Shown here in pieces: positions 14,398 to 50,314 of a DNA stretch of 64,000 nt (within the stretch, counting starts at the first letter, position 1; every line of letters starts with the position of its first letter). The stretch is from positions 62,001 to 126,000 of the forward strand of contig NZ_CP047935.1 in the NCBI RefSeq assembly GCF_014279995.1. The letters run 5' to 3'. Position numbers and translations under genes: made by a program. Source of the DNA: Synechococcus sp. BIOS-E4-1 (lineage in GTDB: Bacteria > Cyanobacteriota > Cyanobacteriia > PCC-6307 > Cyanobiaceae). Under the pieces are notes generated by a model. It saw only the letters and a program-made list of their open reading frames with translations, did not search any database and was not told the DNA's origin.

Positions 14398-14427
14398 CCA
14401 TGCCGCCTCATGTCGCAGGAGATTGTC

Positions 14428-19168: not shown

Positions 19169-19245
19169 AGCCAGGTCGGCGAGCATCTTTTTTGTCCAGT
19201 TCACGTCGGCTGGGTGTGAACATGGAATGAACCGATCAAGGCGTC

Positions 19246-21660: not shown

Positions 21661-21671
21661 TTGTCGACACC

Positions 21672-26178: not shown

Positions 26179-27520
26179 TCCCCGCACGCTGCTCGTGCGT
26201 GCGGTGATGTTCGACTGGCTCGGGCAGCTGTTGATTCTGGCGCTGGTGATGCTGTTCCCACGCCTGGCGGGGTTACCGAGTGATGGCATGACGTTGTTCA
26301 GCCAGACAGGCTGGTTGCTGTTCATGGTTTTGCTCTATCCAGCCCTGGGATGGTTGTTTGGCAGCTACACCGTGTTGCGCTGGCGCCGGCTGACATTGCC
26401 CGTGCTTTTGCAGCGTTTGCTGCTCACCGCTGTAGCGACACTGATGGTTGTTGCCATCGTTCGTTGGCTTTTGAACCCTGGAGTTGAGTTGTGGCTCGTG
26501 CATCGCAGGGTTCAACTCCTTTGGATGACAGGGGTCAGTGGCTGGGCGTTTGCGGTTCGGCTGGCGATGCGCCGTGGACTGTTGTTACCGGAATCACCTC
26601 GCTTGTTTTTGTTGGCGGAGCCCGATGAAATTGCGCAAGTCATGCGGGCCTGGAAACGCGTGCCTGAGCGCCAGAGACTCTGGCCTACGCAGCCTGAAGT
26701 GTTACTCGAACGGATGAAGCGAATGGACGAGCCTTTGCTGCTTGCGATCACTCCAGCGCTGCGTCAGCACTCTGAATTGCTGCCGCTACTGGAGTGCTCC
26801 GAGACCAGTGATCCTCGTGAAATTCGGATGTTGTCGCTGCTCAGCTTGTTTCAACAGCAGCAGGAGCGTTTGCCTCCAGCCTTTATCGGCCAGGACGGTC
26901 TGGCCTATGACGACCTTCCCTGGGCTGCCACCTTCAGCGTGCAGGCCCAGCTCAAACGCATGGCCGACCTGCTTGTGGCAGCAGCCCTGCTGCTGATCAC
27001 ATTCCCCTTCGTTGTGATCTCCGCCCTGTTGATCTGGATCGAAGATCAGGGGCCAGTGTTTTACACGCAGCAGCGCAGTGGCTGGCTGGGTCGCCCTTTC
27101 TGGGTGATCAAGTTACGCACAATGAGCGTTCAGCCCAGTCACGAACCGCCGTCCTGGACCAAGCCTGGAGACCGTCGGATTACATCCGTGGGTGGTTGGC
27201 TGAGACGGTTTCGCATTGATGAATTGCCTCAACTGTTCAATGTGCTCAAGGGAGAGATGAGTCTGATCGGTCCGCGACCTGAGCGACCAGAAATGGAGCA
27301 GGAGCTCGAACGACAAATCCCGCATTACCGAAAGCGCCACTGGATGCGACCGGGGTTGAGTGGTTGGGCTCAGGTCTGTGCTCCCTATGCAAGCAGTGTC
27401 GAAGACTCTGATCTCAAACTGTCCTATGACCTTTATTATCTTTTGAATTTCAGTACCTGGCTGGATCTTGTGATCCTGTTCCGCACTATCAAGACGGTGC
27501 TTAAAGCAGGTGGTCGCTGA
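26171..27520 (+). CDS. WbaP-type polyprenyl-phosphate sugar phosphotransferase
   Basis: Initiates a lipid-linked glycan by moving a sugar phosphate to undecaprenyl phosphate at the inner membrane. The C-terminal ~190 residues are a bacterial sugar transferase domain: KRMADLLVAAALLLITFPFVV (hydrophobic anchor), FYTQQRSGWLGRPFWVIKLRTM, RRFRIDELPQLFNVLKGEMSLIGPRPERPEME and the tail RPGLSGWAQVCAPYASS. The N-terminal ~250 residues have hydrophobic helices, partly like WbaP/PglC fusions, with a variable domain. ATG at 26171 overlaps rfbD by 8 bp. Which sugar it uses is not predictable. Confidence 0.92.
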   Translation: MNDPRTLLVRAVMFDWLGQLLILALVMLFPRLAGLPSDGMTLFSQTGWLLFMVLLYPALGWLFGSYTVLRWRRLTLPVLLQRLLLTAVATLMVVAIVRWLLNPGVELWLVHRRVQLLWMTGVSGWAFAVRLAMRRGLLLPESPRLFLLAEPDEIAQVMRAWKRVPERQRLWPTQPEVLLERMKRMDEPLLLAITPALRQHSELLPLLECSETSDPREIRMLSLLSLFQQQQERLPPAFIGQDGLAYDDLPWAATFSVQAQLKRMADLLVAAALLLITFPFVVISALLIWIEDQGPVFYTQQRSGWLGRPFWVIKLRTMSVQPSHEPPSWTKPGDRRITSVGGWLRRFRIDELPQLFNVLKGEMSLIGPRPERPEMEQELERQIPHYRKRHWMRPGLSGWAQVCAPYASSVEDSDLKLSYDLYYLLNFSTWLDLVILFRTIKTVLKAGGR

Positions 27521-27614
27521 TCGCTCAGACGATTCTCAGTGTTCAATCATATTTGGGTCACATCCTGCTCAAATCGTTGGTCTAGGTTGAAGTTAGAGAG
27601 TTTTAAATATCCTT

Positions 27615-28811
27615 TTGTCAAGTTATTTCCATCAGCATCAGTCATTAGGGCATCAGGCAGTTCCTGCTCAAGCAAGTGATCCCAGTGTTTTGAGTGGGCT
27701 TTCGATTGCTCCTGCACAATTAATCGATGAGTTGAGTGTCAGCATCACTCGCCGGGCAGTGGTAATTGACGGTTTTCTTGATTTCTACATGCAGTCTGCG
27801 GGCGGCGTTGTCAATGTATCGGGCGGAAGTTCGGGTGGGCAAGTGATTCAGTCTGTGCCCATTCCTTTGGTCGATCAAGAATTTGTTCGCTCGGTGATTG
27901 CAAGGCTTGATGCAATTATTGATCTGGATTTCCGTGTTGTTGATCGTGCCGCAGCCGCTGATATTGATCTTTTTTACGACACTGGCATTGATTTAGGTGA
28001 TCAAGAAACAACACTTGGTTTGGCGGTTTCATCCGGCCAAGATTGGGAGTTATTCGTTAACTACCCCCCACTCCAAGATGATGAAGCCTATCGTCGTTAT
28101 GTGTTTCTTCACGAGCTTGGGCACGCACTTGGCTTGGAGCATGCCTTCGATTCTTCCGATGGTGATGTTTCGCTAGGGATTACAGATCCATGGAGTAGTA
28201 ACTACCCAGAAGAAACTGTGATGGCTTATCGATCTCCATTGTTTGGGCAATGGCCCGATTTCTTTACTGCCAATGACCTCAATGCGTTGGCAGCCATTTG
28301 GGGGCCTGAGCAACAGCAATTATCAAGCTTGGGTGAAGCTCGTGAAGGTGGAGATTATTCAGAGGCCTTTCTTGGTGGTTTGGGTGACGACATGATCCGC
28401 TCCAAGGGCGGAGATGACATAGTGAGCGGTGGTTTAGGTGTTGATGCTTTATTTGCTGGTGATGGTGATGACTGGATCAATGGTGATCAGGGAGATGATC
28501 GCCTTGATGGCCAGTTGGGTGATGATTGGATTCATGGTGGCCTCGGCAATGATTGGTTGAATGGTGGATCAGGTAATGATTGGCTTTCAGGTGGTGTTGG
28601 TGCTGATGCATTTGTTCTGTCTGAGGGTTTCGATGTGGTGACAGATTTTGATTTTTTCTCTGGAGATCGTGTGCTGGTTGCTTCAGGATCAGAGTTCAGG
28701 ATTCTTCAAGTTGGGGCTGATTTGCAAGTTTCTGCTGATTTTGGTTCCCTGAACTTGCAAAATGTTGATAGATCGATGATTCCATTGTCTTCTCTGGTCC
28801 AGCAGATTTGA
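27615..28811 (+). CDS. M10-type metzincin protease with RTX repeats
   Basis: Probable secreted zinc protease of the serralysin-like kind. The zinc motif is HELGHALGLEH (H166, E167, H170, H176), followed by a Met-turn at M203 in ETVMAYRSP. Residues ~245-335 carry glycine/aspartate-rich RTX repeats (GGLGDDMIRSK, GDGDDWINGDQGDDRLDG, GGSGNDWLSGG) that bind calcium. The end is a hydrophobic and acidic tail. No signal peptide is seen, as expected for type I secretion. Start is TTG at 27615, weakly supported. It stands alone between rfbD-linked genes and rfbA, with long spacers on the downstream side and a more AT-rich codon choice than its neighbours. Confidence 0.85.
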   Translation: MSSYFHQHQSLGHQAVPAQASDPSVLSGLSIAPAQLIDELSVSITRRAVVIDGFLDFYMQSAGGVVNVSGGSSGGQVIQSVPIPLVDQEFVRSVIARLDAIIDLDFRVVDRAAAADIDLFYDTGIDLGDQETTLGLAVSSGQDWELFVNYPPLQDDEAYRRYVFLHELGHALGLEHAFDSSDGDVSLGITDPWSSNYPEETVMAYRSPLFGQWPDFFTANDLNALAAIWGPEQQQLSSLGEAREGGDYSEAFLGGLGDDMIRSKGGDDIVSGGLGVDALFAGDGDDWINGDQGDDRLDGQLGDDWIHGGLGNDWLNGGSGNDWLSGGVGADAFVLSEGFDVVTDFDFFSGDRVLVASGSEFRILQVGADLQVSADFGSLNLQNVDRSMIPLSSLVQQI

Positions 28812-29169
28812 TTTTATTTTTGACTGGTTGATTGGATGGTATTGGACTCATGAGTTGTGTTGTGTGGCTTGGTTTTTGGCTGCCCTGTCAGTCTTTCAGT
28901 TTTAAATGATGTGAGAGCTTGATATGTGACGTGATTTCAGATTCAGTGCTGGCACGTTGCCTTTGGACGACTTGTGACATGAGCGATGGATCAATGAGTT
29001 GGTCCAATGCAACAGATTTAAATGCACTTTAGAGTTGGTTCTCAATACTTTGAGATCATTGTTGGCTCACTTCTTCGATGGATAAAAATTAAGTGTCATT
29101 CACTTTCCAATCGATCCACTGATTTGTTTCTGGCTTCCATGCGGCCGTTGTTGTGGCAGTATTCATGCA
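28812..29169. other. 358-bp spacer between the RTX protease and rfbA
   Basis: AT-richer than the core genome. I see no plausible gene, RNA gene or strong hairpin with a T-run. It should hold the rfbA promoter, but no convincing -35/-10 pair was found by eye. Confidence 0.5.
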
Positions 29170-30090
29170 GTGAGGATGCATGGGTTGGCTCAGTCTCGAA
29201 AAGGCATCATTCTTGCGGGCGGTAGCGGCACCAGGCTGCATCCGATTACGAAGGCCGTCAGCAAGCAGTTATTGCCTGTCTACGACAAGCCTATGGTGTA
29301 TTACCCATTGAGCACTCTGATGCTGGCAGGGATCAGGGACGTGTTGATTATCACGACCCCATCAGATCAAGCGGCATTTCAGAGTTTGCTTGGTGATGGA
29401 CGTCAATGGGGTATGCGTTTGAGCTACGCGGTCCAGCCCGATCCGGACGGTCTGGCTCAGGCTTTCTTGATTGGCGCTGATTTTTTGGACGGTCATCCTG
29501 CAGCATTGGTGCTCGGAGATAACCTTTTCCATGGCCAGGATCTTGTGCCTGATGATTTATCTGATCAGGGTGCCACCGTTTTTGCTTATCCCGTGAGAGA
29601 TCCTGAGCGCTACGGGGTTGTTGATTTTTCTGCTGATGGACACGTCATCAGCATTGAGGAAAAGCCAGCAAGACCCAAGTCGCGTTACGCCGTGACTGGT
29701 CTCTATTTTTATGACAGCACTGTTGTTGATCGCGCCAAAAAGGTCAAACCCTCTGCCCGTGGTGAACTGGAGATCACGGATCTCAATCGTGATTATCTCA
29801 AGGATGGTTTGCTCAAGGTTGAGCTGATGGGTCGAGGGATGGCCTGGTTGGATACTGGAACCTGTGATTCTTTGCATGAAGCATCCAGCTATATCCGTAC
29901 ACTTGAGCATCGACAGAGTTTGAAAGTGGGCTGCCCTGAAGAGGTGGCCTGGAGGCATGGCTGGATTTCTGATGATCAGCTTCGGGCTTTGGCTGAACCT
30001 TTGAAAAAGAGTGGTTATGGCAATTACTTAATGCAGCTTCTGGAAAACGGATGCCGACCAGATTCAAAGGCAGGTCTCCTAGGAGTTTGA
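29170..30090 (+). CDS. rfbA: Glucose-1-phosphate thymidylyltransferase
   Basis: Makes dTDP-glucose, the first step to dTDP-L-rhamnose (RmlA). The 306-residue protein has [75 protein letters not shown] and [16 protein letters not shown], all diagnostic of RmlA. The start is GTG at 29170 or ATG at 29176; both precede [10 protein letters not shown]. It is separated from rfbB by 470 bp. All four rml genes lie on the same strand but not as one packed operon. Confidence 0.97.
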
Positions 30091-30560
30091 GCTGATCATC
30101 AGCCACTGATATTTGCAAATCCACTGATATATGATCTGCTTCTAGAGAGTCGGGTAGAGCGAGCTTCCATTTGATTTTTTGAATTGGTTGATTGTTCGTT
30201 ATCCTTTGCGAATATGATGATCTGAATCGAAGTTGGTTTAATTTTTCTCGCTTTTGCGTGTTTGTTGCGGTAACTTTCTCGCAGGTTTAGATATTTTGGC
30301 ACTTGTTTTGATTGTCGATTCATTATTGCCGTCTGATATTATTGTGTAATATAAGGCTTGGATCGGCGCGCATGACATTCTCTATTTTTGCTTTGTAATT
30401 GTTGGCTTTGATTGTCTCACTTAAGCGGAGGGATGTGTTCTGCTTCGATCGTTGATTGGAAAATGGGTTGATTGGCGTTTGCAAAAGAAGTCAAGCTTGA
30501 ACAGCAGCTCGCCTTTCTGGGCATTTGGGGGTTTATCCTTCCATCAGGATTTGAATTGTG
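30091..30560. other. 470-bp AT-rich spacer between rfbA and rfbB
   Basis: Contains a short direct repeat of ccactgatat (about 30102 and 30121) and many T-rich stretches. No gene of convincing length or codon use is visible on either strand. An AGGA box at 30546-30549 lies at the end and serves rfbB. Confidence 0.5.
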
Positions 30561-31667
30561 ATGTCTTTTCACCTGCCAGCTGATTTCCGTGTGTTGGTGA
30601 CCGGGGGAGCTGGATTTATTGGGAGTTCTGTCGTGCGCAGGCTTTTGCATCACTCAGATGTTCAGGTCTTCAATCTGGATAAAGTTGGTTATGCCAGTGA
30701 CCTCACAAGCATCGGTGACCATCCCCATCACCATTTACTCAGGGTGGATTTAGCCAATGCCGAGGCTACGCAGGAAGCGGTCCGAATCGCGGATCCGGAT
30801 CTCGTGATGCATCTTGCTGCAGAAAGTCACGTCGATCGTTCAATCGACGGCCCAGGCATATTTATTGAAAGCAATATCGTTGGGACTTTTCATTTACTTC
30901 AGTCCGTGCGTCTCCACTGGGAGCAGCTGGCGCCCCATCGCCGTGATCGTTTTCGCTTCCATCACATCAGTACGGATGAAGTGTTTGGTTCGCTGGGAGA
31001 TCAGGGACGCTTTTCTGAAACCACTGCTTATGATCCTCGCAGTCCGTATTCTGCGAGTAAGGCTGCTAGCGATCATCTTGTTAATGCATGGCACCACACC
31101 TTTGGTTTGCCTGTCGTTCTGACCAACTGCTCCAATAATTATGGTCCTTGGCAGTTTCCAGAAAAGTTGATTCCCGTTGTCATTCTCAAGGCCATTGCAG
31201 GTGAATCTATTCCTCTTTATGGAGATGGTTTGAATATCCGTGATTGGTTGTATGTTGAAGACCATGTTGATGCTCTTCTGCTTGCAGCAACGCGCGGTCG
31301 AATCGGCGATCACTATTGTGTCGGAGGGGCCGGTGATCATGGCTCTGCGAGTGAGCGAAGTAATCGCGATGTTGTTGAAACGATCTGCTCGATTCTTGAT
31401 CGAATCAGGCCACAGAATGAGCCCTATGCAAGCTTGATCAAATGTGTGTCTGATCGGCCAGGGCATGATCGCCGATATGCGATTGATGCCAGCAAAATAT
31501 CCAGAGAACTTGGTTGGAAGCCGCAGCACAGTTTTGAGGAGGGCTTACAGGCCACGGTTGAGTGGTATTTACAGAACCTTGACTGGTGTCAAGCGGTGCG
31601 TGAACAATCGGGATACGACGGTGAGCGGATTGGAATTACCGATCAGAGCGCTGTTTCGGGTTCATGA
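30561..31667 (+). CDS. rfbB: dTDP-glucose 4,6-dehydratase
   Basis: Second step to dTDP-L-rhamnose (RmlB). The extended short-chain dehydrogenase has TGGAGFIGSSVVRRLLHH, HLAAESHVDRSIDGP, ISTDEVFGSLG with the active-site Asp-Glu pair, YSASKAASDHLVNAW (YxxxK) and NCSNNYGPWQFPEKLIP. The start is ATG at 30561 (MSFHLPADFRVLV); an in-frame GTG lies just before it at 30558. The stop overlaps the next glycosyltransferase start by 4 bp (ATGA), so they are coupled. About 368 residues, slightly longer than average at the C-terminus. Confidence 0.97.
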   Translation: MSFHLPADFRVLVTGGAGFIGSSVVRRLLHHSDVQVFNLDKVGYASDLTSIGDHPHHHLLRVDLANAEATQEAVRIADPDLVMHLAAESHVDRSIDGPGIFIESNIVGTFHLLQSVRLHWEQLAPHRRDRFRFHHISTDEVFGSLGDQGRFSETTAYDPRSPYSASKAASDHLVNAWHHTFGLPVVLTNCSNNYGPWQFPEKLIPVVILKAIAGESIPLYGDGLNIRDWLYVEDHVDALLLAATRGRIGDHYCVGGAGDHGSASERSNRDVVETICSILDRIRPQNEPYASLIKCVSDRPGHDRRYAIDASKISRELGWKPQHSFEEGLQATVEWYLQNLDWCQAVREQSGYDGERIGITDQSAVSGS

Positions 31668-34703: not shown

Positions 34704-35627
34704 ATGCAGGCCGTTGTTACCGGTGCCAGTGGCTTCATTGGTTCCCATCTGGTGGATGGTCTGCTGCGTGCGGGGTACAGGGTCAAGGCCCTGGGGCGTC
34801 AGCTTCCAGGTTTGATCAGTGCTGAGGCGCAGCTCCATCCCGATCTGACGCTGTCTTCCGTGCCATTGGCAGATGGCCTGGCTCTGCAGCAAACGCTGGA
34901 GGGTGCGCAGGTTGTGTTTCATCTGGCTTGCGGGAGTCTTCCCCAGACCTCCAATCGCGATCCACAGGCGGATGTGCAGGTCAATCTGCTCGGATCATTG
35001 AATTTGCTTGAAGCGGCGCGTCTCACCGATGTGAAGCGCTTCGTGATGGTGTCGTCGGGCGGAACGGTGTATGGCGTGCCTCGAGAGGTGCCGATTCCAG
35101 AAACCCACCCCACAGATCCCATCTGCTCCTACGGCATCACCAAGCTTGCAATCGAGAAATATGTGGTTCTTTATCGCCAGTTGCACGGCCTCGAGGCGGT
35201 GGTGCTGAGGGTGGCGAACCCTTTTGGTCCGCGTCAGCGCCTGGATGCAACACAGGGTGTGGTCCCCGTGTTCCTTGGCCGAGCCCTGAGAGGCGACCCC
35301 TTGCAGATCTGGGGTGATGGAACAACCGTGCGCGATTTCCTGGATGTGTCTGATGTGGTCGAAGCCCTGTTGATGGCGGCTCGCTCTCAATCGGATCAGT
35401 ATCTGTTCAACATTGGCTCCGGCCAGGGTCTGAGCCTCAACCAGCTCGTTGGTCTGTTGGAGGTCCAGCTGCAGCGATCCCTGAATGTTGAGTATCTGCC
35501 CTCAAGGGGATGTGATGTTCCCACCAACGTTCTCTGCATTGAACGAGCGAAGCAGGCTCTGGGTTGGACGCCCAGGGTGTCTGTCGCTGAGGGGCTTCAG
35601 CGTCTTTGCGACAGTCTTAACGACTGA
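34704..35627 (+). CDS. NAD-dependent sugar epimerase/dehydratase
   Basis: Extended short-chain dehydrogenase, 307 residues, probably making an activated sugar for the glycan. The Rossmann loop is VTGASGFIGSHLVDGLL, then VVFHLACGSLPQTSN, VMVSSGGTVYGVP, the catalytic YGITKLAIEKYVVLY (YxxxK) and ANPFGPRQR. It resembles UDP-glucose 4-epimerase and UDP-glucuronate decarboxylase families; the precise reaction cannot be told by eye. It completes the forward-strand operon from rfbB. The last 11 bp overlap the convergent RgpF fusion gene. Confidence 0.9.
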   Translation: MQAVVTGASGFIGSHLVDGLLRAGYRVKALGRQLPGLISAEAQLHPDLTLSSVPLADGLALQQTLEGAQVVFHLACGSLPQTSNRDPQADVQVNLLGSLNLLEAARLTDVKRFVMVSSGGTVYGVPREVPIPETHPTDPICSYGITKLAIEKYVVLYRQLHGLEAVVLRVANPFGPRQRLDATQGVVPVFLGRALRGDPLQIWGDGTTVRDFLDVSDVVEALLMAARSQSDQYLFNIGSGQGLSLNQLVGLLEVQLQRSLNVEYLPSRGCDVPTNVLCIERAKQALGWTPRVSVAEGLQRLCDSLND

Positions 35628-37947
35628 GCCCAGGCACATGTGTCATGGCATAGCGCTTGCCGTTGGCCATGCAGATCTGAGGGAGCAGCCGCTCGATGGC
35701 ATGCAGCATGGTGCCGTCATAGCCCAGGGGTTCTTCTGGATAGTCGTCCCAGTTCAGACCAAGGTTGTAGAGGTTGCTCAGGGCTCCTTGACGAGTCCAG
35801 AACATGGTGCCCACTGGAAAGTTGATCGCTTGCGGCAGTTGTTGGATCCCAAGACGCTCAGCCACTTGTTCAGCATGGGCGCGGTTTTCAGTCCAGCCCA
35901 GGCAGCCGGGATCATCGGGAAACACCAGGCCAAGATCGGGATCGCTGTTGATGGCGGCAAGGATGATGTCGGCCATGGGTTGCTCGGCATCACCGAGCAG
36001 GTTGGCCAGAAGAAAATCACGCCAGCGCGCGGCTGTGCTGCTATCGATCAACACACTTTTTTTGGTGTGCAGATGCCCGTGAATGGTGTAGTCGCGATCA
36101 AGCTTTTGGCCCAGTTCGCTGAGCAGGGGTCCGATGTCGCGACCTCGGTTGGGCACCGGGTGAAGGCTGGCTTCCAGCTGGTTGTTGTGCAGGATTTGGC
36201 AGATCTGTGATTCGATCGTTGGATCGCTGAAGCTCAGAAAAAGATCTGGTTTCACTTTGCTTTGACCAAGGCGATCCAGGATGGGGGCCAGTAACTCCGG
36301 ATAGAACACGTGTATGTGTAGGGCGACCTCGCTGGAAGCGGGCAAGCGTTTGATCACATCTCGGGGTTGAATGGTTGGCACCAGCCAGGGACCCTTGGGT
36401 TGTCGTTTTCGATGCCAGTGTGCGAGCGGGTCACGGCGGGAACCCTGAACAAGTTGGTGCTCCCTGTAGATCCCTGGATGAAAACCTGGAAAAGGTTTTC
36501 GTGCCTGGATATTGCTGCGCCAGCTGAGTAAATAATGTTGGTTCAGCTCCCGCTCAGTGAACCGTTGCATCGGATAAGCAAAAGTGGCATTCACAAGCTT
36601 CTTCTGACGCAGCAGAAGGAGTTCGGCTTCTTCCTGCTCAACTTCAGTACGGCTGATTCCAGCCAGCTTGATCAGAGCCTTGATGTAGGAGGGCATGTGG
36701 AACCAGCGTCTGGCCTGTTCGCGGCTGAGGGCTCCCAGCTGTTTCATCCGTTCAGGGGAGCGCAGAAGTGCCACAGCTTTGCGGGCCATGGCGGTGCAAT
36801 TGAAGTAAGGGGCCACGCCGGCTGAGTGAAGGAGGGGTTGCTGTTCCAGCAGATTGGCGATTCCGCAGGCTTCGGCGAAGCAGAGCACCGGAGTTCCTGC
36901 CAGCATCGCGTCGATCGCCACATTTGGCAGTGGGTCGAGACGTGAACTCACAACAAAAAGATTGCTGCGATCGATCAGGTCCTGGTATGCCGGTGATTCA
37001 TCCAGCATCACAAGATGGTTGGTCAGCCCGCTGCGGATGATCTGATCTTTCAACCAAATCGAGACGTTGAAGTCATAGTCAGGTTCGTAACCGCTGCCGA
37101 TCCAGGCGAATCTCACTTTGAGCTCTGGCGCCTGCTGAATGATTTCAGCCGCCATGGCCACAAACAGATCAACACCTTTGCGGGGTTGCACAGCTCCGGC
37201 ACCCAGCACCAGGAGGGTGTCCTGGTGGAGCTGTTGCAGAAAGGTTGCGGCGTCTTGAACGTTGCTGCTCTGTTGGGCTCGTTGTGGTTTGTCTGTTTGG
37301 GTCTCTTCGGGCAGCTTGCACTGCCCTTGGGGAAGCACGGCCACCTGGACATCGGCGAGATCGTTGCAATGGCAGAGCACGTCTCGCCAGGTCAGTGGTG
37401 TTGAACACACCACGCGCGAGGACCACCGGCCAATCTCGTTGAAGATGTCGAGTGGCTTGACGTAAGTCACGAACTCATGCAACAGGCAGAGGCAGACAAT
37501 CCCCTCTCCGCGCAAGGGCTCCAGAAAAGGAGCTGAAACCACTGAATTCACTAATGCAAATTCAGGATTTCCCTGCTTGCAGGCCGTTTTGAGTGCACGT
37601 TTGACCAGTTTGCGGTTCACAAACGCCAGCCTTGCCTGGATCAAGGCAGTGCCGCTCGCTTGGAACTGCTGGCGTAAGGCTCCGCCTTTCAGCAGCATCA
37701 CCACCACGTTGTGGCTCTGGCTGAGTTGCTGCACCAGATTGAGAGCCAGGATCGGTGCCCCTGTGGCGGAGGCCTCATGACTCACCACGATGGCGGTAGG
37801 TCGGCTGGGCTGGAAAGGTTGTCCGCCCGCCTGCATCTCCATGCCAAGACTGGTGAGCAATTGGATGTAGGCCAGACGGGAATAGTGCTTGATGCGCCGT
37901 CCAAACAGGGAGTTCTTCAAGGCGTGAGCGGTTGGGATGCGCGGCAT
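35617..37947 (-). CDS. Two-domain protein: GT4 glycosyltransferase plus RgpF domain
   Basis: A 776-residue fusion. Residues ~40-430 form a GT-B glycosyltransferase (TAIVVSHEASATGAPILALNL, VLGAGAVQPRKGVDLFVAMA, LFVVSSRLDPLPNVAIDAMLAGTPVLCF). Residues ~545-770 form a rhamnan-synthesis protein F domain (LHIHVFYPELLAPILDRL, PVPNRGRDIGPLLSEL, IHGHLHTKKS, FPVGTMFWTRQGAL). RgpF proteins are associated with rhamnose polymers in streptococci. ATG at 37947 (MPRIPTAHALKN) is preferred over an upstream start at 38127. It overlaps the stop of the next upstream gene by one base (TGATG). Together with the dTDP-rhamnose genes this suggests a rhamnose-containing glycan; which sugar each domain transfers is inferred only. 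Confidence 0.88.
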   Translation of the reverse strand: MPRIPTAHALKNSLFGRRIKHYSRLAYIQLLTSLGMEMQAGGQPFQPSRPTAIVVSHEASATGAPILALNLVQQLSQSHNVVVMLLKGGALRQQFQASGTALIQARLAFVNRKLVKRALKTACKQGNPEFALVNSVVSAPFLEPLRGEGIVCLCLLHEFVTYVKPLDIFNEIGRWSSRVVCSTPLTWRDVLCHCNDLADVQVAVLPQGQCKLPEETQTDKPQRAQQSSNVQDAATFLQQLHQDTLLVLGAGAVQPRKGVDLFVAMAAEIIQQAPELKVRFAWIGSGYEPDYDFNVSIWLKDQIIRSGLTNHLVMLDESPAYQDLIDRSNLFVVSSRLDPLPNVAIDAMLAGTPVLCFAEACGIANLLEQQPLLHSAGVAPYFNCTAMARKAVALLRSPERMKQLGALSREQARRWFHMPSYIKALIKLAGISRTEVEQEEAELLLLRQKKLVNATFAYPMQRFTERELNQHYLLSWRSNIQARKPFPGFHPGIYREHQLVQGSRRDPLAHWHRKRQPKGPWLVPTIQPRDVIKRLPASSEVALHIHVFYPELLAPILDRLGQSKVKPDLFLSFSDPTIESQICQILHNNQLEASLHPVPNRGRDIGPLLSELGQKLDRDYTIHGHLHTKKSVLIDSSTAARWRDFLLANLLGDAEQPMADIILAAINSDPDLGLVFPDDPGCLGWTENRAHAEQVAERLGIQQLPQAINFPVGTMFWTRQGALSNLYNLGLNWDDYPEEPLGYDGTMLHAIERLLPQICMANGKRYAMTHVPGLSR

Positions 37948-40463
37948 CAGCGATTCTCTGCGGCAAAAGCGAGTTGCAGCCATGGATGGCGATGCAGCAG
38001 CAGACGGCTGAGTTGTCGTTGGCGTTGATTCGTCTGGCTCTGCAGCATCGATGTGCCGTGCTGGGTGTAGGTGGCAAGGGGTTGTGGGTACAGCACGCCA
38101 TGCCAACCGGCCTCGATCAGCTTGCACCAGAAATCGAAATCCTCCCAGCCTCCGGGGATGTGGCTGTAACCACCAACGGCTTCCCAGGCGCTGCGACGCA
38201 CCAGTGCCATCGCGTCAATCATGTTGCCGGCTCGCAGTTGCTCGCGCTGCCAGGGATGGCCGCCTCCCACCAATCCCAGAGGCTGCCCGTCGTCATTGCA
38301 GATCCGGATGAGCGGATGCACAACAGCGGTTGTGTCCGGGCTTGCTTTGGCCAGTCCAAGGCAAAGCTCGCAGGCCCTGACATCGATCTGATTGTCAGCA
38401 TCCAGCACCCAGCACCAGGGAGCTGAAGCAACGGCAAACGCGGTGTTGCGTGCAGCAGCCAGGCCTGAATTCTTGTGGTGTTTCAGTAGCTTCGCGCTGC
38501 AGAATCGTTGCCCGTGTGCGTCCAGCCATTCATGGCAGCATCTGAGGCTGTCGTCGGTGGAGGCGTCATCGACAATCAACAACTCCACGGCGGGCAGGGA
38601 TTGACCTAGACAGCTCTCCAGTGCGGCAGGGATCCGTTCGGCGTAGTTGTAGGAGCTGATGCAGATCGAGATTTCGGGCGGCAGGCCACTGGCGTGCTGC
38701 CAGAGCACCTGCGATGTTGGTGATGGTGTGTGGATCGTGCCCGGGGCAGGTTTGCCTGCCTTGTGCCAAGCCAATTCCTCCAGCAGTTCCTCGGGGTTGA
38801 TTGGCTGTTGAAAACAGAGCACACCCAGGCTCTTCCAGAGCAATGGCTCTGATGATTGGGGATTGATGCGCACAAGATTGAGGCCGGCGCTGCAGCAAGC
38901 TTGAACCCATGCCGCGAGCAGCCTGGCTTGCTCTGGAGAGAGGGCCGGCGCGGGGGGAAAGACAGGCAGATGCAGGAGCGCAGCAGGGAGCCTTTGCCAG
39001 CTGTCTTCTGGTTCGCTGCTGCCCAGACAGAGCCACTCCCCGCCAAGCATCACCAGTGCTTCGGGGCAAGGCAGGCCTAACTGGGCGGAGGCTTCAACGT
39101 TGTTGCTGTTGAGCCAGCCCTCGCACGCTGCGTTGTGGAGGGTGTGGTGAATGCTGAGCTGTTCAGCATTTACTCCGAGAAGCCGTAACAGCTTCACCTG
39201 ATCGGGATCGGGATCGAACACCCGCTCCACCTTGGTGAGATGCAACAGCTGTTTTGGGTCTTGCGCCGTGATCTCGAGCGTTTGCAGATGCAACGCCGCG
39301 TCTCTTGCTGCTTCAGCCGAGCAAATCTCAGGATTGCTGCCTGGGCTGAGTGGCAGGTGGTGGATCCACAGGTGTGTCGTCCAGTCCTCCAGGGAGCCGC
39401 CAATCAAGCCAAGCCTCAGTCTCTGAGGGAGAGGCCCTCCCTGGTCGGCACTGGGGTCATCGCCGGGGAAGCCTGGATGGTTGAGACATCTCAGTTGAGC
39501 AAGGCTGATGGGAGCAATGCCGCTTTGGGTCCAGGCTTGGATCCCAGCAGCCTGGAGTTCACTTTGATCACTTCCCAGAGCCGTGAGCGCTCGGCTCCAG
39601 GGGTGCTGATTGGGCGTTGAGAGGTTCCGGGGGTTGAGACGCGCCGATGGCTCCGGTTGTCGTCTGGCCCATTGCCGCAGTGCTTCCACCGACCCGGCTG
39701 CGGCCTGTTCTAGTTGTCGATGCCAACGCCTGACCTTGCGCTTCAGGAGGGGGGATTGGCCGTGGGTCTGGCTGCGGCGATAGTCAGAGCAGATGCAGCC
39801 CAATGCCGTTTGCAAGGCGGTTGGATCGTCGTTGTCTGGCCTGCAGAAGGTTTGCAAGGCCTGGATCTGAGTTTCGGGCGCATCAAACCACCTGCTGTAA
39901 CTCACCACATGCAGAGGCAGATCACCAGCGTCGACCAGCAGTTGCTGCTGATGGCGAATCCACAGTGCCTGCGCTCGCGCGCTGGTCATCTCGGTGGCTG
40001 CTGCATCGCGGTTGATGAGCGACGTGACCACCTCTGCAGGGTCACGAAAGGCGAGCAGCAAGCGTAAGGTCAGATTCAGCTCAGCAGCCACATCTCGCCA
40101 GAGCGGCAAGAGCAGAGAACTGCGCGGATCCTTGATGGCCCAGGGCCCTGATTGTTGCTGCTGATCGACCGTCAGCAGCCGTTTGAGGCAAATGGCGGCG
40201 CGCTGGGCGCGCGGCGTTGTTAACCAATCCTGAGGAAGCGCCAGGGTGCCCTGTTCGCTGGGCCACCAGCGCTGGAGATCAATCAGCAGCTCTTCCTGCA
40301 GGGCCGTGATGTCTGATCGCTCGAAGTAGCCAGCGGGATTGTGGTCATCAGCGGGGATCAGAGGCCCTGGCAAGGCGACGCCGAGGGCCTCGAGAATCGA
40401 TCCCAGCAGGGACGTGCCACTGCGGTGCATGCCCACCACCAGGATCAATGGCGCACGATTCAT
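37947..40463 (-). CDS. Fusion: sulfotransferase-like domain plus GT2 glycosyltransferase
   Basis: An 838-residue multidomain protein. Residues 1 to ~260 match a PAPS-dependent sulfotransferase (LILVVGMHRSGTSLLGSIL loop, GPWAIKDPRSSLLLPLW, FRDPAEVVTSLINRD). Residues ~270-600 are an unrecognised region with a weakly GT-like look (VFDPDPDQVKLLRLLGV). Residues ~600-838 are a GT2 domain: EISICISSYNYAERIPAALES, LLIVDDASTDDSLRCC, WVLDADNQIDVRACEL and GGWEDFDFWCKL. ATG at 40463 gives MNRAPLILVVG. It overlaps the following gene by one base and the preceding sulfotransferase by 4 bp, so all three are translationally coupled. It may add a sugar and a sulfate in one protein; that is inference. Confidence 0.87.
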   Translation of the reverse strand: MNRAPLILVVGMHRSGTSLLGSILEALGVALPGPLIPADDHNPAGYFERSDITALQEELLIDLQRWWPSEQGTLALPQDWLTTPRAQRAAICLKRLLTVDQQQQSGPWAIKDPRSSLLLPLWRDVAAELNLTLRLLLAFRDPAEVVTSLINRDAAATEMTSARAQALWIRHQQQLLVDAGDLPLHVVSYSRWFDAPETQIQALQTFCRPDNDDPTALQTALGCICSDYRRSQTHGQSPLLKRKVRRWHRQLEQAAAGSVEALRQWARRQPEPSARLNPRNLSTPNQHPWSRALTALGSDQSELQAAGIQAWTQSGIAPISLAQLRCLNHPGFPGDDPSADQGGPLPQRLRLGLIGGSLEDWTTHLWIHHLPLSPGSNPEICSAEAARDAALHLQTLEITAQDPKQLLHLTKVERVFDPDPDQVKLLRLLGVNAEQLSIHHTLHNAACEGWLNSNNVEASAQLGLPCPEALVMLGGEWLCLGSSEPEDSWQRLPAALLHLPVFPPAPALSPEQARLLAAWVQACCSAGLNLVRINPQSSEPLLWKSLGVLCFQQPINPEELLEELAWHKAGKPAPGTIHTPSPTSQVLWQHASGLPPEISICISSYNYAERIPAALESCLGQSLPAVELLIVDDASTDDSLRCCHEWLDAHGQRFCSAKLLKHHKNSGLAAARNTAFAVASAPWCWVLDADNQIDVRACELCLGLAKASPDTTAVVHPLIRICNDDGQPLGLVGGGHPWQREQLRAGNMIDAMALVRRSAWEAVGGYSHIPGGWEDFDFWCKLIEAGWHGVLYPQPLATYTQHGTSMLQSQTNQRQRQLSRLLLHRHPWLQLAFAAENR

Positions 40464-41056
40464 GCTGCGATTCCTGCTCCATAGACACGCTTCTGCCATG
40501 CGTCCCAACGTGGGTTCACAGCCGCGATGCGCTGTCGCTCGGCTGAGCTGAAGCCAGGTTCGGCTGGCCTGATTGGCCGTGAGTTGTCCCGTGGTGGCGC
40601 TTGAAAGGGTGCTGTGCCAACTGGCAGCAGAGGCAGCAGCAGGCGGTTGAGATCGTCATGCAGTGTCTCGAGACGCAACGCGGTGACCTGCTGATCGACT
40701 TCAAAGTATTGGAGCCACCAGTCGGCAGCCACCCAGGTTCCGCCCAGTCGCAAGGAATAGGACAGACCACTGCGCACGGGTTCGAAATCCAGATCCGGCA
40801 AGTTCATGTGCCGGCGTTTATGTTCCCAGTCGCTGATCAACCAATCTTCCAGACGTCGGCTGGTGATGAAACGTTGGCGTGCGTTGGCACGCCATACTCC
40901 TCGACTCTCTCGCAGGGCCACGGAGTCATGCTTGAGGGGCGTCGAATCATCGTCCACTTCAACCCCGCTGAACTGCCTCTCATGAAACAGACGGTTCATC
41001 GAGGTTCCCCCGGTTTTGGGAAGATGAAGCCAGAGGAAGGAATCAGCGATGATCAT
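40460..41056 (-). CDS. Sulfotransferase-like protein
   Basis: A 198-residue protein. The PAPS-binding loop is FLWLHLPKTGGTSMNRLFHE near residue 12, followed by SRGVWRANARQRFITSRRLEDWLISDW, less conserved than in classical sulfotransferases. The C-terminus contains RPAEPGFSSAERQRIAAVNPRWDAW, as in several bacterial sulfotransferase-family proteins. ATG at 41056 (MIIADSFLWLHLPKTGG) was chosen because the longer frame to 41197 has an unconserved leader that would overlap the divergent neighbour. A 4-bp overlap couples it to the fusion gene. It begins 31 bp from the divergent second sulfotransferase. Confidence 0.82.
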   Translation of the reverse strand: MIIADSFLWLHLPKTGGTSMNRLFHERQFSGVEVDDDSTPLKHDSVALRESRGVWRANARQRFITSRRLEDWLISDWEHKRRHMNLPDLDFEPVRSGLSYSLRLGGTWVAADWWLQYFEVDQQVTALRLETLHDDLNRLLLPLLPVGTAPFQAPPRDNSRPIRPAEPGFSSAERQRIAAVNPRWDAWQKRVYGAGIAA

Positions 41057-41087
41057 GACGCGATAAGCCCTCCAGCAGGAGCAGTGT

Positions 41088-41837
41088 ATGGATGGCCGGC
41101 TGCCGGACTTTCTTGGAGTGGGCGTGCAGAAGGGGGGCACCACCACCCTGCAGGCCATGTTGCAGGAGCATCCTGGGGTCTTTCTGCCGCCCGCCAAGGA
41201 ACTGCAGTTTTTCAGTCTTTATTACGGCGAGGGAGAGGAGTGGTATCGCCAGCAATTTGTGGCGGCGCAGCCGGGGCAGCGCTGCGGCGAGATCACGCCC
41301 TACTACCTGTTTCACCCTGAGGCTCCGGCCCGCATCCGGCGATTGCTGCCGGATGCGCGCCTGATCGTGCTGCTCAGGGATCCGGTGCAGCGTTGTCTTT
41401 CGGGGTTGTTCCATTCCCGCCGGTTGGGCCTTGAGCCGCTGCAAGTTGAGCAAGCCCTGGAGGCTGAGCCGGGCAGGTTGGTGGGGGCGGAGGCTGTTCT
41501 GGCGGCCAACGATGGTCGCCACTTGTCCCACCAGGTGCACAGCTATCTGAGTCGCAGCCGCTATGAGCAACAGCTCATGCGCTACGAGCAGTTGTTCCCA
41601 AGAGAGCAACTTCTGCTACTGCGCAGTGAGGATCTGTTTGGGAACCCTGAGGGCCTGTGGCAGCGAGTGCTGGCGTATTTGCAGCTTGAAGATTGGCCGC
41701 TACCCCATGAGGTAGGGCGGCTCAATGCCGGTGCCGGCGAAGCCAAGCATCTGGATCCAGCCCTGGTGCAGAGGCTGCGCCGGCAGCTGGCTTCTACATA
41801 TGAGGCGATGGAGCGGCGATATGGGTTGCAATGGTGA
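41088..41837 (+). CDS. PAPS-dependent sulfotransferase
   Basis: A 249-residue sulfotransferase close to the heparan-sulfate N-deacetylase/N-sulfotransferase type. The 5'-phosphosulfate loop is FLGVGVQKGGTTTLQAMLQEHPGVFLPP; GEITPYYLF follows. The 3'-phosphate loop is LIVLLRDPVQRCLSG, the most diagnostic second motif, with LLLLRSEDLFGNPEGLWQRVL after it. ATG at 41088. It is divergent from the other sulfotransferase; the methyltransferase follows after 34 bp. Likely it sulfates a hydroxyl of the island's polysaccharide; the substrate is inferred from the location. Confidence 0.9.
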   Translation: MDGRLPDFLGVGVQKGGTTTLQAMLQEHPGVFLPPAKELQFFSLYYGEGEEWYRQQFVAAQPGQRCGEITPYYLFHPEAPARIRRLLPDARLIVLLRDPVQRCLSGLFHSRRLGLEPLQVEQALEAEPGRLVGAEAVLAANDGRHLSHQVHSYLSRSRYEQQLMRYEQLFPREQLLLLRSEDLFGNPEGLWQRVLAYLQLEDWPLPHEVGRLNAGAGEAKHLDPALVQRLRRQLASTYEAMERRYGLQW

Positions 41838-41871: not shown

Positions 41872-42552
41872 ATGGGTTGGTGGTGGCGTCGAGGCAACCG
41901 GATGGCTGACGCGACTTCCTCGGACAAGGCCCAGGGGCCTGAAGGCATTACCCAGATCGGCCATCGAGATTATGTGGGTGGTCTGTGGGATGAGATTGGT
42001 GAGCTCCAGTTCAGCTTTCTCAAGCAGCAGGGGTTGCGGCCGGAGCAGGTGCTGCTCGATATCGCCTGTGGATCCCTGAGATTGGGGGTCAAGGTGATCC
42101 CCTACCTGCAACCGGGCCATTACCTGGGGATGGACAAAGAGCAGCAGCTGCTTGATGCGGGTGCTCACCAGGAGCTGGGGGAGACGTTGCTGGCGAGCCA
42201 GCGCCCGAAGTTGTTGTGTTCCGCCGATTTTGCTTTTGAGCAGTTTGCAACGCCGGTTGATGCGGCGATCGCCCAATCCTTGTTTACCCATCTGCCGCCG
42301 CCGCTGATCGGCCATTGTCTCGAGAAGCTGCGGCCGTGGCTGAAGCCGGATGGTCGCTTTTTTGCCACATTCTTCGAGGTGGAGCAGGAGAGGGATAATC
42401 CAAGTGATCCCCACGACCACGGTTATTTCGCCTATACGCGCGAGCAGATTGAGGCGTTTGGCGCGGATCAGGGCTATCAGATGGACTACATCGGTGACTG
42501 GGGCCATCCGCGCGACCAGGTGATGGTGGTCTACCGCCACCCGGATTGTTGA
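41872..42552 (+). CDS. SAM-dependent methyltransferase
   Basis: A 226-residue class I methyltransferase. Motif I is LLDIACGSLRLGVKVIPYL, preceded by QIGHRDYVGGLWDEIGELQ. Motif post-I YLGMDKEQQLL, a VDAAIAQSLFTHLPPPLIGH motif and LKPDGRFFATFFEVEQ follow. ATG at 41872 gives a short Trp-rich leader (MGWWWRRGNRM). A second ATG at 41902 would also suit. It probably methylates a sugar or another small component of the glycan; the target is not known. Confidence 0.87.
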   Translation: MGWWWRRGNRMADATSSDKAQGPEGITQIGHRDYVGGLWDEIGELQFSFLKQQGLRPEQVLLDIACGSLRLGVKVIPYLQPGHYLGMDKEQQLLDAGAHQELGETLLASQRPKLLCSADFAFEQFATPVDAAIAQSLFTHLPPPLIGHCLEKLRPWLKPDGRFFATFFEVEQERDNPSDPHDHGYFAYTREQIEAFGADQGYQMDYIGDWGHPRDQVMVVYRHPDC

Positions 42553-42675: not shown

Positions 42676-43926
42676 TCAGTTCAAGGCGCCGATCGAACCG
42701 CTGGCCACCAGTTCCATCAAAGCCAGCTGGCGCTGCACGCAGTTGGCCAGCCGGAAGTGCTGCAGCATGGTGGCCCGTGCCGCCTCGCCCAGCTCCTGGG
42801 CCAGTTTGCGCTCGCTGAGCAGTTCGGCAATCGCTTGCGCCAGCTGTTGCGGTGCAAAAAAATCCACCAGCAAGCCGTTGTGGCGATCACGGATCACCTC
42901 CTGCACCGGCGCAGTGGCCGAGCCCACCACGGCACAGCCGCAGCTCATCGCTTCCAGCAGGCTCCAACTCAGCACAAAGGGATAGGTGAGATACACATGC
43001 GCCTGGGAGAGCTGCAGGATCGGGATGAACTGCTCATAAGGCACCTTGCCGGCGAAATGCACGCAGCTCGGGTCGTACTGGCCTTCGATTTCCGCCAGGA
43101 ACTTATCCTTCCATTCGCCATCGGGGCAAGCGGCGCCGTAGCTCACACCACTGGTTTCACCCACGATCAGCAGTTGTGCGTCCGGAATGAGCTGCTGCAG
43201 ATGCGGAATCGCGCGGATCATCGTGTGGCAGCCGCGATAGGGCTCCAACCTGCGATTCACGAAGGTCACGATCTTCTGGCCCGGGCTGAGCACGGTGCCG
43301 TCGGCGAGGGTCACAGCCTTGGGATCCTTGCTGGGACAGGCCTTGTCGGTATCGATCCCGTCGTGAATCACGCTGATGCGATCGTGCCAGGCGGCCGGAT
43401 AACTGCTGCGCTGAAACTGTGTTGGTGTCACGCACCAGCTGCTGGCTTCCAGATTGACCAGCTGATTGGTGGTTTTCATCCGCAGCCGCGCGCAGCCGGC
43501 CCAGTCGGGTTCGCCCTGCAGTTCGGGATCGAAGTCGTAATCGAAGCCGCGCGTGTTGTAAAAGAATTCCTGGTAGGTGAGCAGTGGCACCTGGGGCCAT
43601 ACATCGCGCAGGAAGAGCAGTTCACCCCAGCCGGGGTGGCCGCAGATCAGATCCGGCGTGAAGCCTTTCTGTTTGAGCTGGCTGGCGGCGCGAGCGCAGG
43701 CTTCGGCACGCAGCACCTTGCTTTCGATGTCCTGCACCCAGGGATGGATTCCGGGCTGATTGCCGCGCGCCAGGCGGTAGCGGAAGTAATGCATGCCGCT
43801 GGGCAGCACCTCTTCGCTCTCCTCGATCCCCAGCCCCACGAGCTGATGGCCCCCCAGGGCTTCCAGTGCCCGCAGAATATGAATGTATTGGCCCGGGAAG
43901 CCCTGGTGCACGAACAGCAGCTTCAT
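42676..43926 (-). CDS. GT4-family glycosyltransferase
   Basis: GT-B transferase, 416 residues. It begins MKLLFVHQGFPGQYIHILRAL, with YQEFFYNTRGFDYDFDPEL in the N-terminal domain. The C-terminal domain starts about 220 (IVTFVNRRLEPYRGCHTMIRAI) and includes LSQAHVYLTYPFVLSWSLLEAMSCGCAVVGS, the donor nucleotide region. ATG at 43926. It is divergent from the following unknown gene by 53 bp. Donor and acceptor unknown. Confidence 0.9.
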   Translation of the reverse strand: MKLLFVHQGFPGQYIHILRALEALGGHQLVGLGIEESEEVLPSGMHYFRYRLARGNQPGIHPWVQDIESKVLRAEACARAASQLKQKGFTPDLICGHPGWGELLFLRDVWPQVPLLTYQEFFYNTRGFDYDFDPELQGEPDWAGCARLRMKTTNQLVNLEASSWCVTPTQFQRSSYPAAWHDRISVIHDGIDTDKACPSKDPKAVTLADGTVLSPGQKIVTFVNRRLEPYRGCHTMIRAIPHLQQLIPDAQLLIVGETSGVSYGAACPDGEWKDKFLAEIEGQYDPSCVHFAGKVPYEQFIPILQLSQAHVYLTYPFVLSWSLLEAMSCGCAVVGSATAPVQEVIRDRHNGLLVDFFAPQQLAQAIAELLSERKLAQELGEAARATMLQHFRLANCVQRQLALMELVASGSIGALN

Positions 43927-47816: not shown

Positions 47817-49007
47817 TCATGCTTCAGCTCGCAGCAGCCGCTTCAACAACCGCCGCAGTTTCCATATGGGGGAGCTGGCCATCAGCTTGTTCAGCTCTTC
47901 AGTGGTTGTGATCAGCTGCTGATTGGTCGCCTCCGCAGATTCAAGTTGTTGGATGTAGCGATCGAGATTCACCTGGGCGCATTGCAGTTGTTCGTCTTGC
48001 TGACGCAACCGTGCCGCAAGCAGAGCAGTTGCCTGTTCGAATGTTTCAGTCTGAGGCTTCAGCACGCTGATGGCTGCTGGGCCTGTTGTTGAGCCAGTGC
48101 CTGGGTTCTCGCAAAACAGTTGCCAGTAATGGCCTGAGGCTTCGCAGGCATGGGCCACCACCCGTTCCATGGCATGCAAGCTGCTGCCGTCGATCGGCAG
48201 TGGTTCCGGAGGGAGTTCTTGTAGTGACTGAAAGCACTGAGTTAAGGGGGCTAGGGCTGCGGGGCGCGCCCAGAACATTCCACCTGCTGGAAACATCAAA
48301 ACAGCATCGCGATGAAGGCGTTGATCGAGCGGCTTCAGCAGTTGATGTGCCAACTCGAAATTGTTCCCCCAGTTCAGGTAAGGGCGGATCAGCTCAGGGG
48401 GTTGCGGCATGACCACACCCATCTTTGGAACGTTGTGGAACTGTTGGCGAAGAGCCAGCACGGTGTTTGCGTCAGGAAGCAGTCGCTTCAGCAGTTGTGC
48501 AAGCCAGGCTTCTCCGAAGTCGGTTTCAAGCGAGCGTTTCCCGTGCAGATGCAGCACGAGTGCTTCCTGCCTCAGCTCGGGCCAGAGATGTTGCAACAGT
48601 GGCCCGAGGTTGCGGCCGCGATTGGGGCAAACCCTCACGTCAGTGGATCTGGCTTGTTCAGCGATTGGGCTTTGCCGAAGTGTTGCAGTGATGGAGTCAG
48701 CTTTGGCTGAACTGTCCGTGCTGATCCAGAGCCGCAGGTCTTCAAGTCCCGACTGACAAGCGCTCAGGGCGCCAAGCAGCGTTGGCAGGGTTTCGAGGTA
48801 GTGCACATGCAGATGCACTGCCAAAGGTGGCAGGGGGCTTTTGTCTGTTTCAGGCTCACTGTTTCTCCCTTTGTGCGTTGGTTCTGATTGCTGTTGCAGT
48901 CTCCAATCCAAGCGCTGCTCGAGTCCTGGTGATGGCACGAGGGTGGGCATCCCATTGGGATGCATGATGTTCAGTTCGAGATCTCCGCAGGCAATTGAGC
49001 TGAGCAT
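47817..49007 (-). CDS. RgpF-family (rhamnan synthesis F) protein
   Basis: A 396-residue protein sharing key motifs with the C-terminal half of the GT4-RgpF fusion at 35617-37947: LHVHYLETLPTLLGAL, CPNRGRNLGPLLQHL, LHLHGKRSLETDF and FPAGGMFWARPAAL. After residue ~310 it has a polar, probably coiled-coil tail (LAARLRQQDEQLQCAQVNL) ending with SSPIWKLRRLLKRLL, a tail shared with many surface-glycan transferases. ATG at 49007 overlaps the stop of the ABC ATPase by one base (TAATG), so it is translated with the exporter. This supports a role in rhamnose-containing glycan assembly. Confidence 0.87.
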   Translation of the reverse strand: MLSSIACGDLELNIMHPNGMPTLVPSPGLEQRLDWRLQQQSEPTHKGRNSEPETDKSPLPPLAVHLHVHYLETLPTLLGALSACQSGLEDLRLWISTDSSAKADSITATLRQSPIAEQARSTDVRVCPNRGRNLGPLLQHLWPELRQEALVLHLHGKRSLETDFGEAWLAQLLKRLLPDANTVLALRQQFHNVPKMGVVMPQPPELIRPYLNWGNNFELAHQLLKPLDQRLHRDAVLMFPAGGMFWARPAALAPLTQCFQSLQELPPEPLPIDGSSLHAMERVVAHACEASGHYWQLFCENPGTGSTTGPAAISVLKPQTETFEQATALLAARLRQQDEQLQCAQVNLDRYIQQLESAEATNQQLITTTEELNKLMASSPIWKLRRLLKRLLRAEA

Positions 49008-50314
49008 TAGAGCGATGCCTGCTGCAGTGTTGGAGCTCCGGCGCTGAGATCGCAGAGGCCAAAGCCTTTCACTGGTTGCTCAGTGGTGATGCGCAGTGCA
49101 CAGGCATCGACGACGCGATGCAGGAAGTCGCCGGGGCGATCGCTGGGCCAGATCCCGCCTCCGATGAAGTACAAACCCGGCAGCAGGCCGCCGTTGAAGT
49201 GAAACGTCATGCTGAAGGTGTCGCCTGCGGCGCAGGTCGGCCCCTGGTGCTGCTGACCGGTGATGCGAATGCCTGTCTGGTTGGCAATGTTGCAGGCAAG
49301 ACGAAGATCTTTTTGGGGTTCGTCGGCTCGGTAGGAGAAGCGCAGGCTGAACCTTTCTCCAACGGGGATCAGATTGGCCGCATTCCCATCTTGATTGAGC
49401 ACTTCCACAGCTTCGATGCGAATGCCGCGGGCGTCGTAGCTCACGCTCGAGCTGGGCACCAGGTTGGCGTCATGCTCCGCGTTGCTGAGATCAGGCGACT
49501 CTGTTTTAGGCCCAGGGCTGTTGCCTTCATCGAGTCGATCCGCGGCCTGGGCCAGTAGGGAGCTCCACTCATCAGCTGGTGCGTTGTTGAGCCGTTGGTA
49601 GGTGCTGGTGATCAGTTTGGGCGACCCCATCAGCTTGAGTTCTCCGCCGCTGAGCAGCAGTGCCTGGTCGCAGTGTTGAAGGATCTGCGGACAGCTGTGG
49701 GTGACGAGCAGGATCGATGTGCCGTTGGCCTTGAGTTGCTCCAGGTGGGTGTAGCACTTCTTCTGGAACATCTCATCGCCAACTGCCAGGGCTTCATCCA
49801 CCACCAGAAGATCAGGCTGAACATGCGCTTGAACTGAAAAAGCCAGGCGCACAGCCATGCCACTGGAATAGGTCTTCACAGGTTGATGGATGAAATCACC
49901 GATCCCCGCAAACTCAAGAATCGTGTCCAGCCGTGCATTGATCTCGCTTTTTGTGAGCCCTAACAGGGTGCCGTTGAGGTAAACATTCTCCAGGCCCGTG
50001 AATTCTGGATTGAAGCCACTACCCAGCTCAAGCAGAGCTCCGATGCGGCCTTCAACCCACACCCTGCCCGTTGTTGGCGTGAGCGTGCCACAGATCAACT
50101 GGAGCAATGTGCTTTTGCCAGATCCATTGCGCCCAACAACACCGAGAGTTTGCCCGCGTTTGAGCTGAAAACTCACGTGCTCCAAGGCCCAAAATGGACG
50201 ATACAGCTGTTTTCGCTTTCCCCAGATCGCTTGCAGCAGTCGATCGCGAGGATGCTCATAGATGGGATAGAGCTTGCCGAGCTCTTCCACTTCAAGGGCC
50301 AGATCAGAGCACAT
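49007..50314 (-). CDS. Polysaccharide ABC exporter ATPase (Wzt-type)
   Basis: Nucleotide-binding subunit of an ABC-2 exporter of lipid-linked glycans. The Walker A loop is VVGRNGSGKSTLLQLICG, the signature is TYSSGMAVRLAFSVQAH and Walker B is DLLVVDEALAVGDEMFQ. Residues ~290-430 form a Wzt-type C-terminal domain (LRFSYRADEPQKDLRL, YFIGGGIWPS) that binds the glycan in relatives. ATG at 50314 (MCSDLALEVEEL) overlaps the permease by 11 bp; a GTG at 50362 would also be in frame but overlaps it by 59 bp. The C-terminal domain implies a defined non-reducing glycan end, perhaps a methylated or sulfated residue; that is inference. Confidence 0.93.
   Translation of the reverse strand: MCSDLALEVEELGKLYPIYEHPRDRLLQAIWGKRKQLYRPFWALEHVSFQLKRGQTLGVVGRNGSGKSTLLQLICGTLTPTTGRVWVEGRIGALLELGSGFNPEFTGLENVYLNGTLLGLTKSEINARLDTILEFAGIGDFIHQPVKTYSSGMAVRLAFSVQAHVQPDLLVVDEALAVGDEMFQKKCYTHLEQLKANGTSILLVTHSCPQILQHCDQALLLSGGELKLMGSPKLITSTYQRLNNAPADEWSSLLAQAADRLDEGNSPGPKTESPDLSNAEHDANLVPSSSVSYDARGIRIEAVEVLNQDGNAANLIPVGERFSLRFSYRADEPQKDLRLACNIANQTGIRITGQQHQGPTCAAGDTFSMTFHFNGGLLPGLYFIGGGIWPSDRPGDFLHRVVDACALRITTEQPVKGFGLCDLSAGAPTLQQASL

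Follow-up and report, generated by a model that had tools for sequence, protein, structure and literature searches.

Can a picocyanobacterium place sulfate on its surface glycan, and do three adjacent genes of Synechococcus sp. BIOS-E4-1 form the module that would do so? Most descriptions of sulfated polysaccharides in bacteria come from cyanobacteria. The genes lie in a stretch of 64,000 nucleotides (hereafter, the window; positions 62,001 to 126,000 of contig NZ_CP047935.1), taken from a genome assembled as a single contig of 3.31 Mb. An earlier note counted three sulfotransferase-like genes at this place, one of them fused to a glycosyltransferase, and suggested that the surface glycan is sulfated. 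Synechan, produced by the xss cluster of Synechocystis PCC 6803, is the tested case of a sulfated exopolysaccharide, and Maeda et al. 2021 (PMC8205485) also noted that Wzx/Wzy- and ABC-type clusters of cyanobacteria hold many sulfotransferases.

Organization of the three-gene locus

All three open reading frames were found intact at 37947-41837, and the three motifs singled out previously (GMHRSGTSLLG, HLPKTGGTSMN and GVQKGGTTTLQ) occur in them (Table 1). The stand-alone sulfotransferase gene is best started at ATG 41088 (+). On the opposite strand, the best starts are ATG 41056 for the small gene, rather than the TTG at 41197, and ATG 40463 for the fusion gene, rather than the TTG at 40508. 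The TGA of the small gene overlaps the ATG of the fusion gene as ATGA, and the two are, therefore, probably co-translated.

Table 1. Features of the sulfotransferase locus and its surroundings (window coordinates)
Feature	Position	Strand	Remarks
rmlC, rmlD, polyprenyl-phosphate sugar transferase, rmlA, rmlB	24653..31667	+	RTX-type protein between
GT4 + RgpF-like glycosyltransferase, next downstream	35617..38127	-	Pfam RgpF 146 bits, Glyco_trans_1_4
Fusion protein: sulfotransferase + middle region + GT2	37947..40463	-	838 aa
Fusion, GT2 (GT-A) domain, aa ~594-838	37950..38684	-	DD632-633, D688-A-D690, W773-E774-D775
Fusion, conserved middle region, aa ~345-590	38694..39431	-	no known family
Fusion, sulfotransferase domain, aa 1-230	39774..40463	-	5'-PSB GMHRSGTS, E48, KDPR 111-114, 3'-PB R140...S148
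Small HLPKTGGTS protein, putative third sulfotransferase	40460..41056	-	198 aa, motif
Spacer between divergent start codons	41057..41087	.	31 bp
Stand-alone sulfotransferase, Sulfotransfer_3 type	41088..41837	+	249 aa, Pfam and PDB profile matches
Methyltransferase	41872..42552	+	related genes next to the trio in several genomes
GT4 glycosyltransferase	42676..43926	-	related genes next to the trio in many genomes
Wzt (with Wzt_C domain) + Wzm, ABC glycan exporter	49007..51149	-	

The trio lies in an ABC exporter-type glycan locus

The locus encodes RmlA-D, a priming sugar transferase, several glycosyltransferases, two RgpF-like proteins and the exporter pair Wzm/Wzt, the Wzt_C domain of the latter being glycan-binding. 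It thus contains the Wzm and Wzt, priming transferase and sugar-nucleotide genes that define an ABC transporter-dependent surface glycan locus, and neither Wzx nor Wzy was found among the part of the window's ORFs that was scanned by domain. These surroundings (rmlABCD, RgpF, Wzm/Wzt) point to a surface glycan that contains rhamnose and is assembled in the cytoplasm. The GT4/RgpF gene downstream of the fusion probably has its true start near 37950. None of the three proteins has transmembrane-like segments, and the genome encodes an APS kinase for PAPS supply, which, together with the glycan-locus context, makes cytosolic sulfation during glycan assembly plausible. A phage-defence role was also considered and rejected, there being no PADLOC match.

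Other features of the region deserve mention. Proteins with RTX/calcium-binding repeats are encoded inside the glycan locus at 45937-47115 (-) and 27615-28811 (+); the former resembles an S-layer-like protein, and genes related to it stand close to the fusion in two other loci (L072 and L074). A SecA gene (21525-24527) lies inside the glycan locus between glycosyltransferase and rml genes, and the gene at 61417-63138 encodes another fusion, of a methyltransferase domain with a GT1-type glycosyltransferase domain. About 6-20 kb past the right end of the window (L055, positions 5929-9393, 11624-15124 and 16859-19552), there are very similar tandem TPR-repeat proteins, two ending in Sulfotransfer_3 and one in a methyltransferase domain. 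They are probably the result of a recent duplication with swapped C-terminal domains.

The presence of an RTX-type protein in this locus, and of related ones at L072 and L074, raises the alternative that the three genes sulfate a different acceptor, either a glycoprotein (for example, the glycan on the product of 45937-47115) or a glycolipid, while the ABC exporter serves another polymer. Characterised bacterial sulfotransferases are indeed often glycolipid-directed, as are NodH and Stf0 (PMC11625862). However, the neighbours that recur in relatives of the fusion are rml genes (L066, L070, L080, L081 and L110), Wzt (L077, L079, L081 and L085) or both, whereas RTX neighbours appear in those two relatives only. 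We consider a different acceptor unlikely.

Two of the three proteins carry the residues typical of PAPS sulfotransferases

The stand-alone protein matched Sulfotransfer_3 of Pfam with 65.5 bits in the HMM search that the earlier note had proposed. In the PDB, the profile of its family matched 3rnl, 1t8t, 1vkj and 1nst, reaching 2e-26 for heparan sulfate 3-O-sulfotransferases and 4e-18 for NDST; these two groups are its closest solved relatives after the bacterial 3rnl, although the sequence relation is remote. K37-E38, R97 and S105 are invariant, and K15 is near-invariant, in 18 relatives, and the KE and RDP..R..S residues are conserved in the alignment to 3-OST. The family profile is thus accompanied by the PSB lysine, the 3'-PB arginine and serine, and a glutamate that would act as the catalytic base. 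NDST resembles the locus described here in placing sulfation and another glycan-modifying activity in one chain, but it joins sulfation to deacetylation and not to glycosyl transfer.

The N terminus of the fusion protein also matched Sulfotransfer_3, scoring 28.7 bits where the cut-off is 27 (33.0 bits when the domain was searched alone), and PDB profile searches matched it to TPST1/2 (E 6e-7 to 3e-5) and the CurM sulfotransferase. Its closest solved relatives are TPST1/2 and Sulfotransfer_3 proteins. The TPSTs of animals are Golgi enzymes with protein acceptors, whereas the fusion domain is cytosolic, joined to a GT2 domain and encoded in a glycan locus. A profile of this domain type was built from 23 sequences, some cyanobacterial and some of other phyla, in which H13-R14-S15-G16, E48, K111-D112-P113-R114, R140 and S148 are invariant. 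The 5'-PSB loop GMHRSGTS, therefore, keeps its Lys/Arg (R14) and glycine (G16), and R140 and S148 align with RDGRASVHS of TPST as the 3'-PB arginine and serine. E48 lies in the loop after the PSB helix and would be fit to serve as the catalytic base, although the profile alignment does not align it with the TPST base. Polysaccharide sulfotransferases are defined by a PSB Lys/Arg, a PB serine and a His/Glu base (PMC11625862); these features are present in both the fusion domain and the stand-alone protein, the glutamate being the presumed base. Structural modelling, which the earlier note had also suggested, helped in part: the AlphaFold model of the fusion has a pLDDT mostly of 80-95, but the matches listed by the structure search were all to the GT2 domain.

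Could this domain be catalytically idle, serving as an acceptor-binding or scaffolding part of the glycosyltransferase? The Pfam score is modest, the P-loop has been lost from the fusion of Synechococcus sp. WH 5701, and the relatives in L078 and L085 lack the sulfotransferase domain altogether. An idle domain is, however, not expected to keep the PSB, KDPR, 3'-PB and E48 invariant in 23 sequences that include split and non-cyanobacterial forms, and we regard idleness as quite improbable. With PAPS residues in two of the three proteins, a surface-glycan locus around them and an APS kinase in the genome, the best reading is that a rhamnose-containing glycan served by the ABC exporter would be sulfated.

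The small protein is sulfotransferase-like by its motifs

The count of three sulfotransferase-like genes has to be qualified at this point. The fusion and the stand-alone protein qualify by their Sulfotransfer_3 matches and PAPS residues, while the small protein does so by motifs alone, since searches of Pfam, NCBIfam and the PDB returned no match for it. Its HLPKTGGTS and RRL..WL.S motifs resemble a 5'-PSB and 3'-PB pair, the latter assigned by eye, and K14, GGT, R67-R68, S75 and several histidines are invariant in its family. Its AlphaFold (AF2) model, with a pLDDT of 53, is too poor for a fold search. In a profile-profile comparison of the three sulfotransferase types, there were no significant links, apart from one 24-column P-loop match, between the small family and a PKTGG-type protein (L151).

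Among 386 cyanobacterial genomes, the small-protein family is confined to Cyanobiaceae, bar marginal short matches elsewhere, and its gene is broken in some genomes. Remnants with several stop codons occur in L148, L154 (record of Prochlorococcus MIT 0701) and L149.

Instead of being a sulfotransferase, the small protein may be P-loop-like in another way or accessory, with a role in regulating or stabilising the fusion. The failed family and structure searches, the poor model, a profile match limited to 24 columns and the many fusions that have no small gene beside them all fit that view, which is a real possibility. The paired motifs and the invariant K14, R67-R68, S75 and histidines speak against it, and the protein is treated here as a putative third sulfotransferase.

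The fusion protein is genuine and contains a conserved middle region

The sulfotransferase-GT2 fusion reported in the earlier note proved genuine and conserved. Full-length relatives with 37-70% identity and invariant catalytic motifs are encoded in many genomes, and this recurrence as a single ORF rules out an assembly artefact or a chance fusion. The C terminus matched PF00535 (GT2) with 87 bits, and DD632-633, D688-A-D690 and W773-E774-D775 are invariant in 21 sequences. In the model, this domain superimposes on chondroitin polymerase 2z86 with a Z of 24.5 over 238 residues (rmsd 2.9), and it has the GT-A fold with the DxD motif and the catalytic acidic residue. The note had it elongate the chain; this is a guess, and the domain may instead add a side sugar. 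The E. coli K4 chondroitin polymerase (2z86) and the Pasteurella heparosan synthase 2 share the GT-A fold of the C-terminal domain (Z about 24), but, unlike the fusion, they carry a pair of GT domains and lack a sulfotransferase domain.

About 350 residues, on which the earlier note was silent, separate the two domains, and at least 250 of them are conserved and unannotated. Pfam and PDB searches found no relative of this middle region (best PDB E 1.5). It is also kept in the split proteins of Prochlorococcus and may be the part that docks the acceptor. No sulfotransferase-glycosyltransferase fusion is described in the open-access papers searched, an incomplete collection, in which both the fusion and the architecture of the trio appear to be undescribed.

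The arrangement is conserved in Cyanobiaceae

In a scan of named genomes, 80 loci were retrieved. The full trio, with the sulfotransferase gene followed by the small gene and fusion in the same order and orientation, is present in eight of them (L060, L061, L062, L065, L071, L072, L074 and L080), which are records of Synechococcus, Cyanobium and Vulcanococcus. In 15 out of 21 loci with enough flank, a divergent gene of the stand-alone type lies no more than 3 kb from the fusion, and the ATGA overlap of this locus is repeated in L060, L065 and L080. Three Prochlorococcus loci (L083, L084 and L086) encode the sulfotransferase and middle region in one ORF and the GT2 domain in the next, with an overlap of a few bases; this split is a natural fission of the fusion. 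Outside cyanobacteria, a GT2 gene of this subfamily has both sulfotransferase types as neighbours in two cases: Methylobacterium (L117), and a Peptococcaceae MAG (L128) in which the two types are joined in one protein. Together, the order of the trio, the ATGA overlap, the Prochlorococcus fission and these two neighbourhoods argue that the parts work together.

The Peptococcaceae MAG also encodes, at L128:10823-12355, a protein with two different sulfotransferase domains head to tail, beside the GT2 gene, although a binning error is possible.

In Synechococcus sp. WH 5701 (L073), the fusion has a degenerate P-loop and an interrupted frame, indicating that the trait can be lost; the proteins of L078 and L085 consist of the GT2 domain and middle region without a fused sulfotransferase domain. 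The fusion query matched 37 out of 271 genomes of the family at E 1e-40 or better, and, since a few of these match one domain only, the fusion is present in roughly 30 of the 271. Of 200 genomes sampled from the family, 139 have Sulfotransfer_3, which makes sulfotransferases in themselves a common feature of it. They are also known already from polysaccharide clusters of cyanobacteria, including those of the ABC type (PMC8205485). The view that such genes are unusual to see in a picocyanobacterial cluster is thus not supported.

Proposed function of the trio

We propose, with moderate confidence, that the three genes make up a module for the PAPS-dependent sulfation of a rhamnose-containing surface polysaccharide exported by Wzm/Wzt. 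The polysaccharide would be O-antigen- or capsule-like and assembled in the cytoplasm before its export. The GT2 domain of the fusion would attach a sugar to the lipid-linked chain as it grows, and the sulfotransferase domain tethered to it would move sulfate from PAPS onto that sugar or its neighbour. Since the sulfotransferase is tethered to the GT2 domain, glycosylation and sulfation would occur at the same chain end. Further sulfate might be added by the stand-alone enzyme, at a second position, and by the small PKTGGTS protein, at a third, unless the latter assists the fusion. That all three proteins act on one glycan, and the order of the glycosylation and sulfation steps, are suppositions of this model. 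A case from Aeromonas salmonicida calls for caution: its O-antigen cluster has an ORF with a sulfotransferase domain, yet no sulfate was detected in the O-antigen (PMC4483657).

A more specific proposal can only be made tentatively, and we hold it possible but doubtful. In it, the fusion glycosylates and sulfates the same chain end and, with the Cyanobiaceae-specific PKTGGTS sulfotransferase and the third enzyme, gives widespread picocyanobacteria, some Prochlorococcus among them, a coat that contains rhamnose and is multiply sulfated.

The xss cluster of synechan, as described in the available part of PMC8205485, is similarly a cyanobacterial polysaccharide cluster with several distinct sulfotransferases beside glycosyltransferases. 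However, xss is of the Wzx/Wzy type, whereas the BIOS-E4-1 locus has an ABC exporter, and XssA and XssE are described there as separate sulfotransferases without a glycosyltransferase fusion.

A flavobacterium in a Synechococcus culture has loci predicted to degrade sulfated polysaccharide, and the SusCD proteins of these loci were detected (PMC7029141); this is compatible with a sulfated picocyanobacterial glycan, albeit indirectly. If the conserved sulfation module proposed here is real, a sulfated glycan may be exported by phototrophs that are very abundant in marine and fresh waters. This would matter for recognition by phages and grazers and for the sulfated carbon supplied to heterotrophs that bear sulfatases, and the coupling of glycosyl transfer and sulfation in a single chain would be a useful enzyme design.
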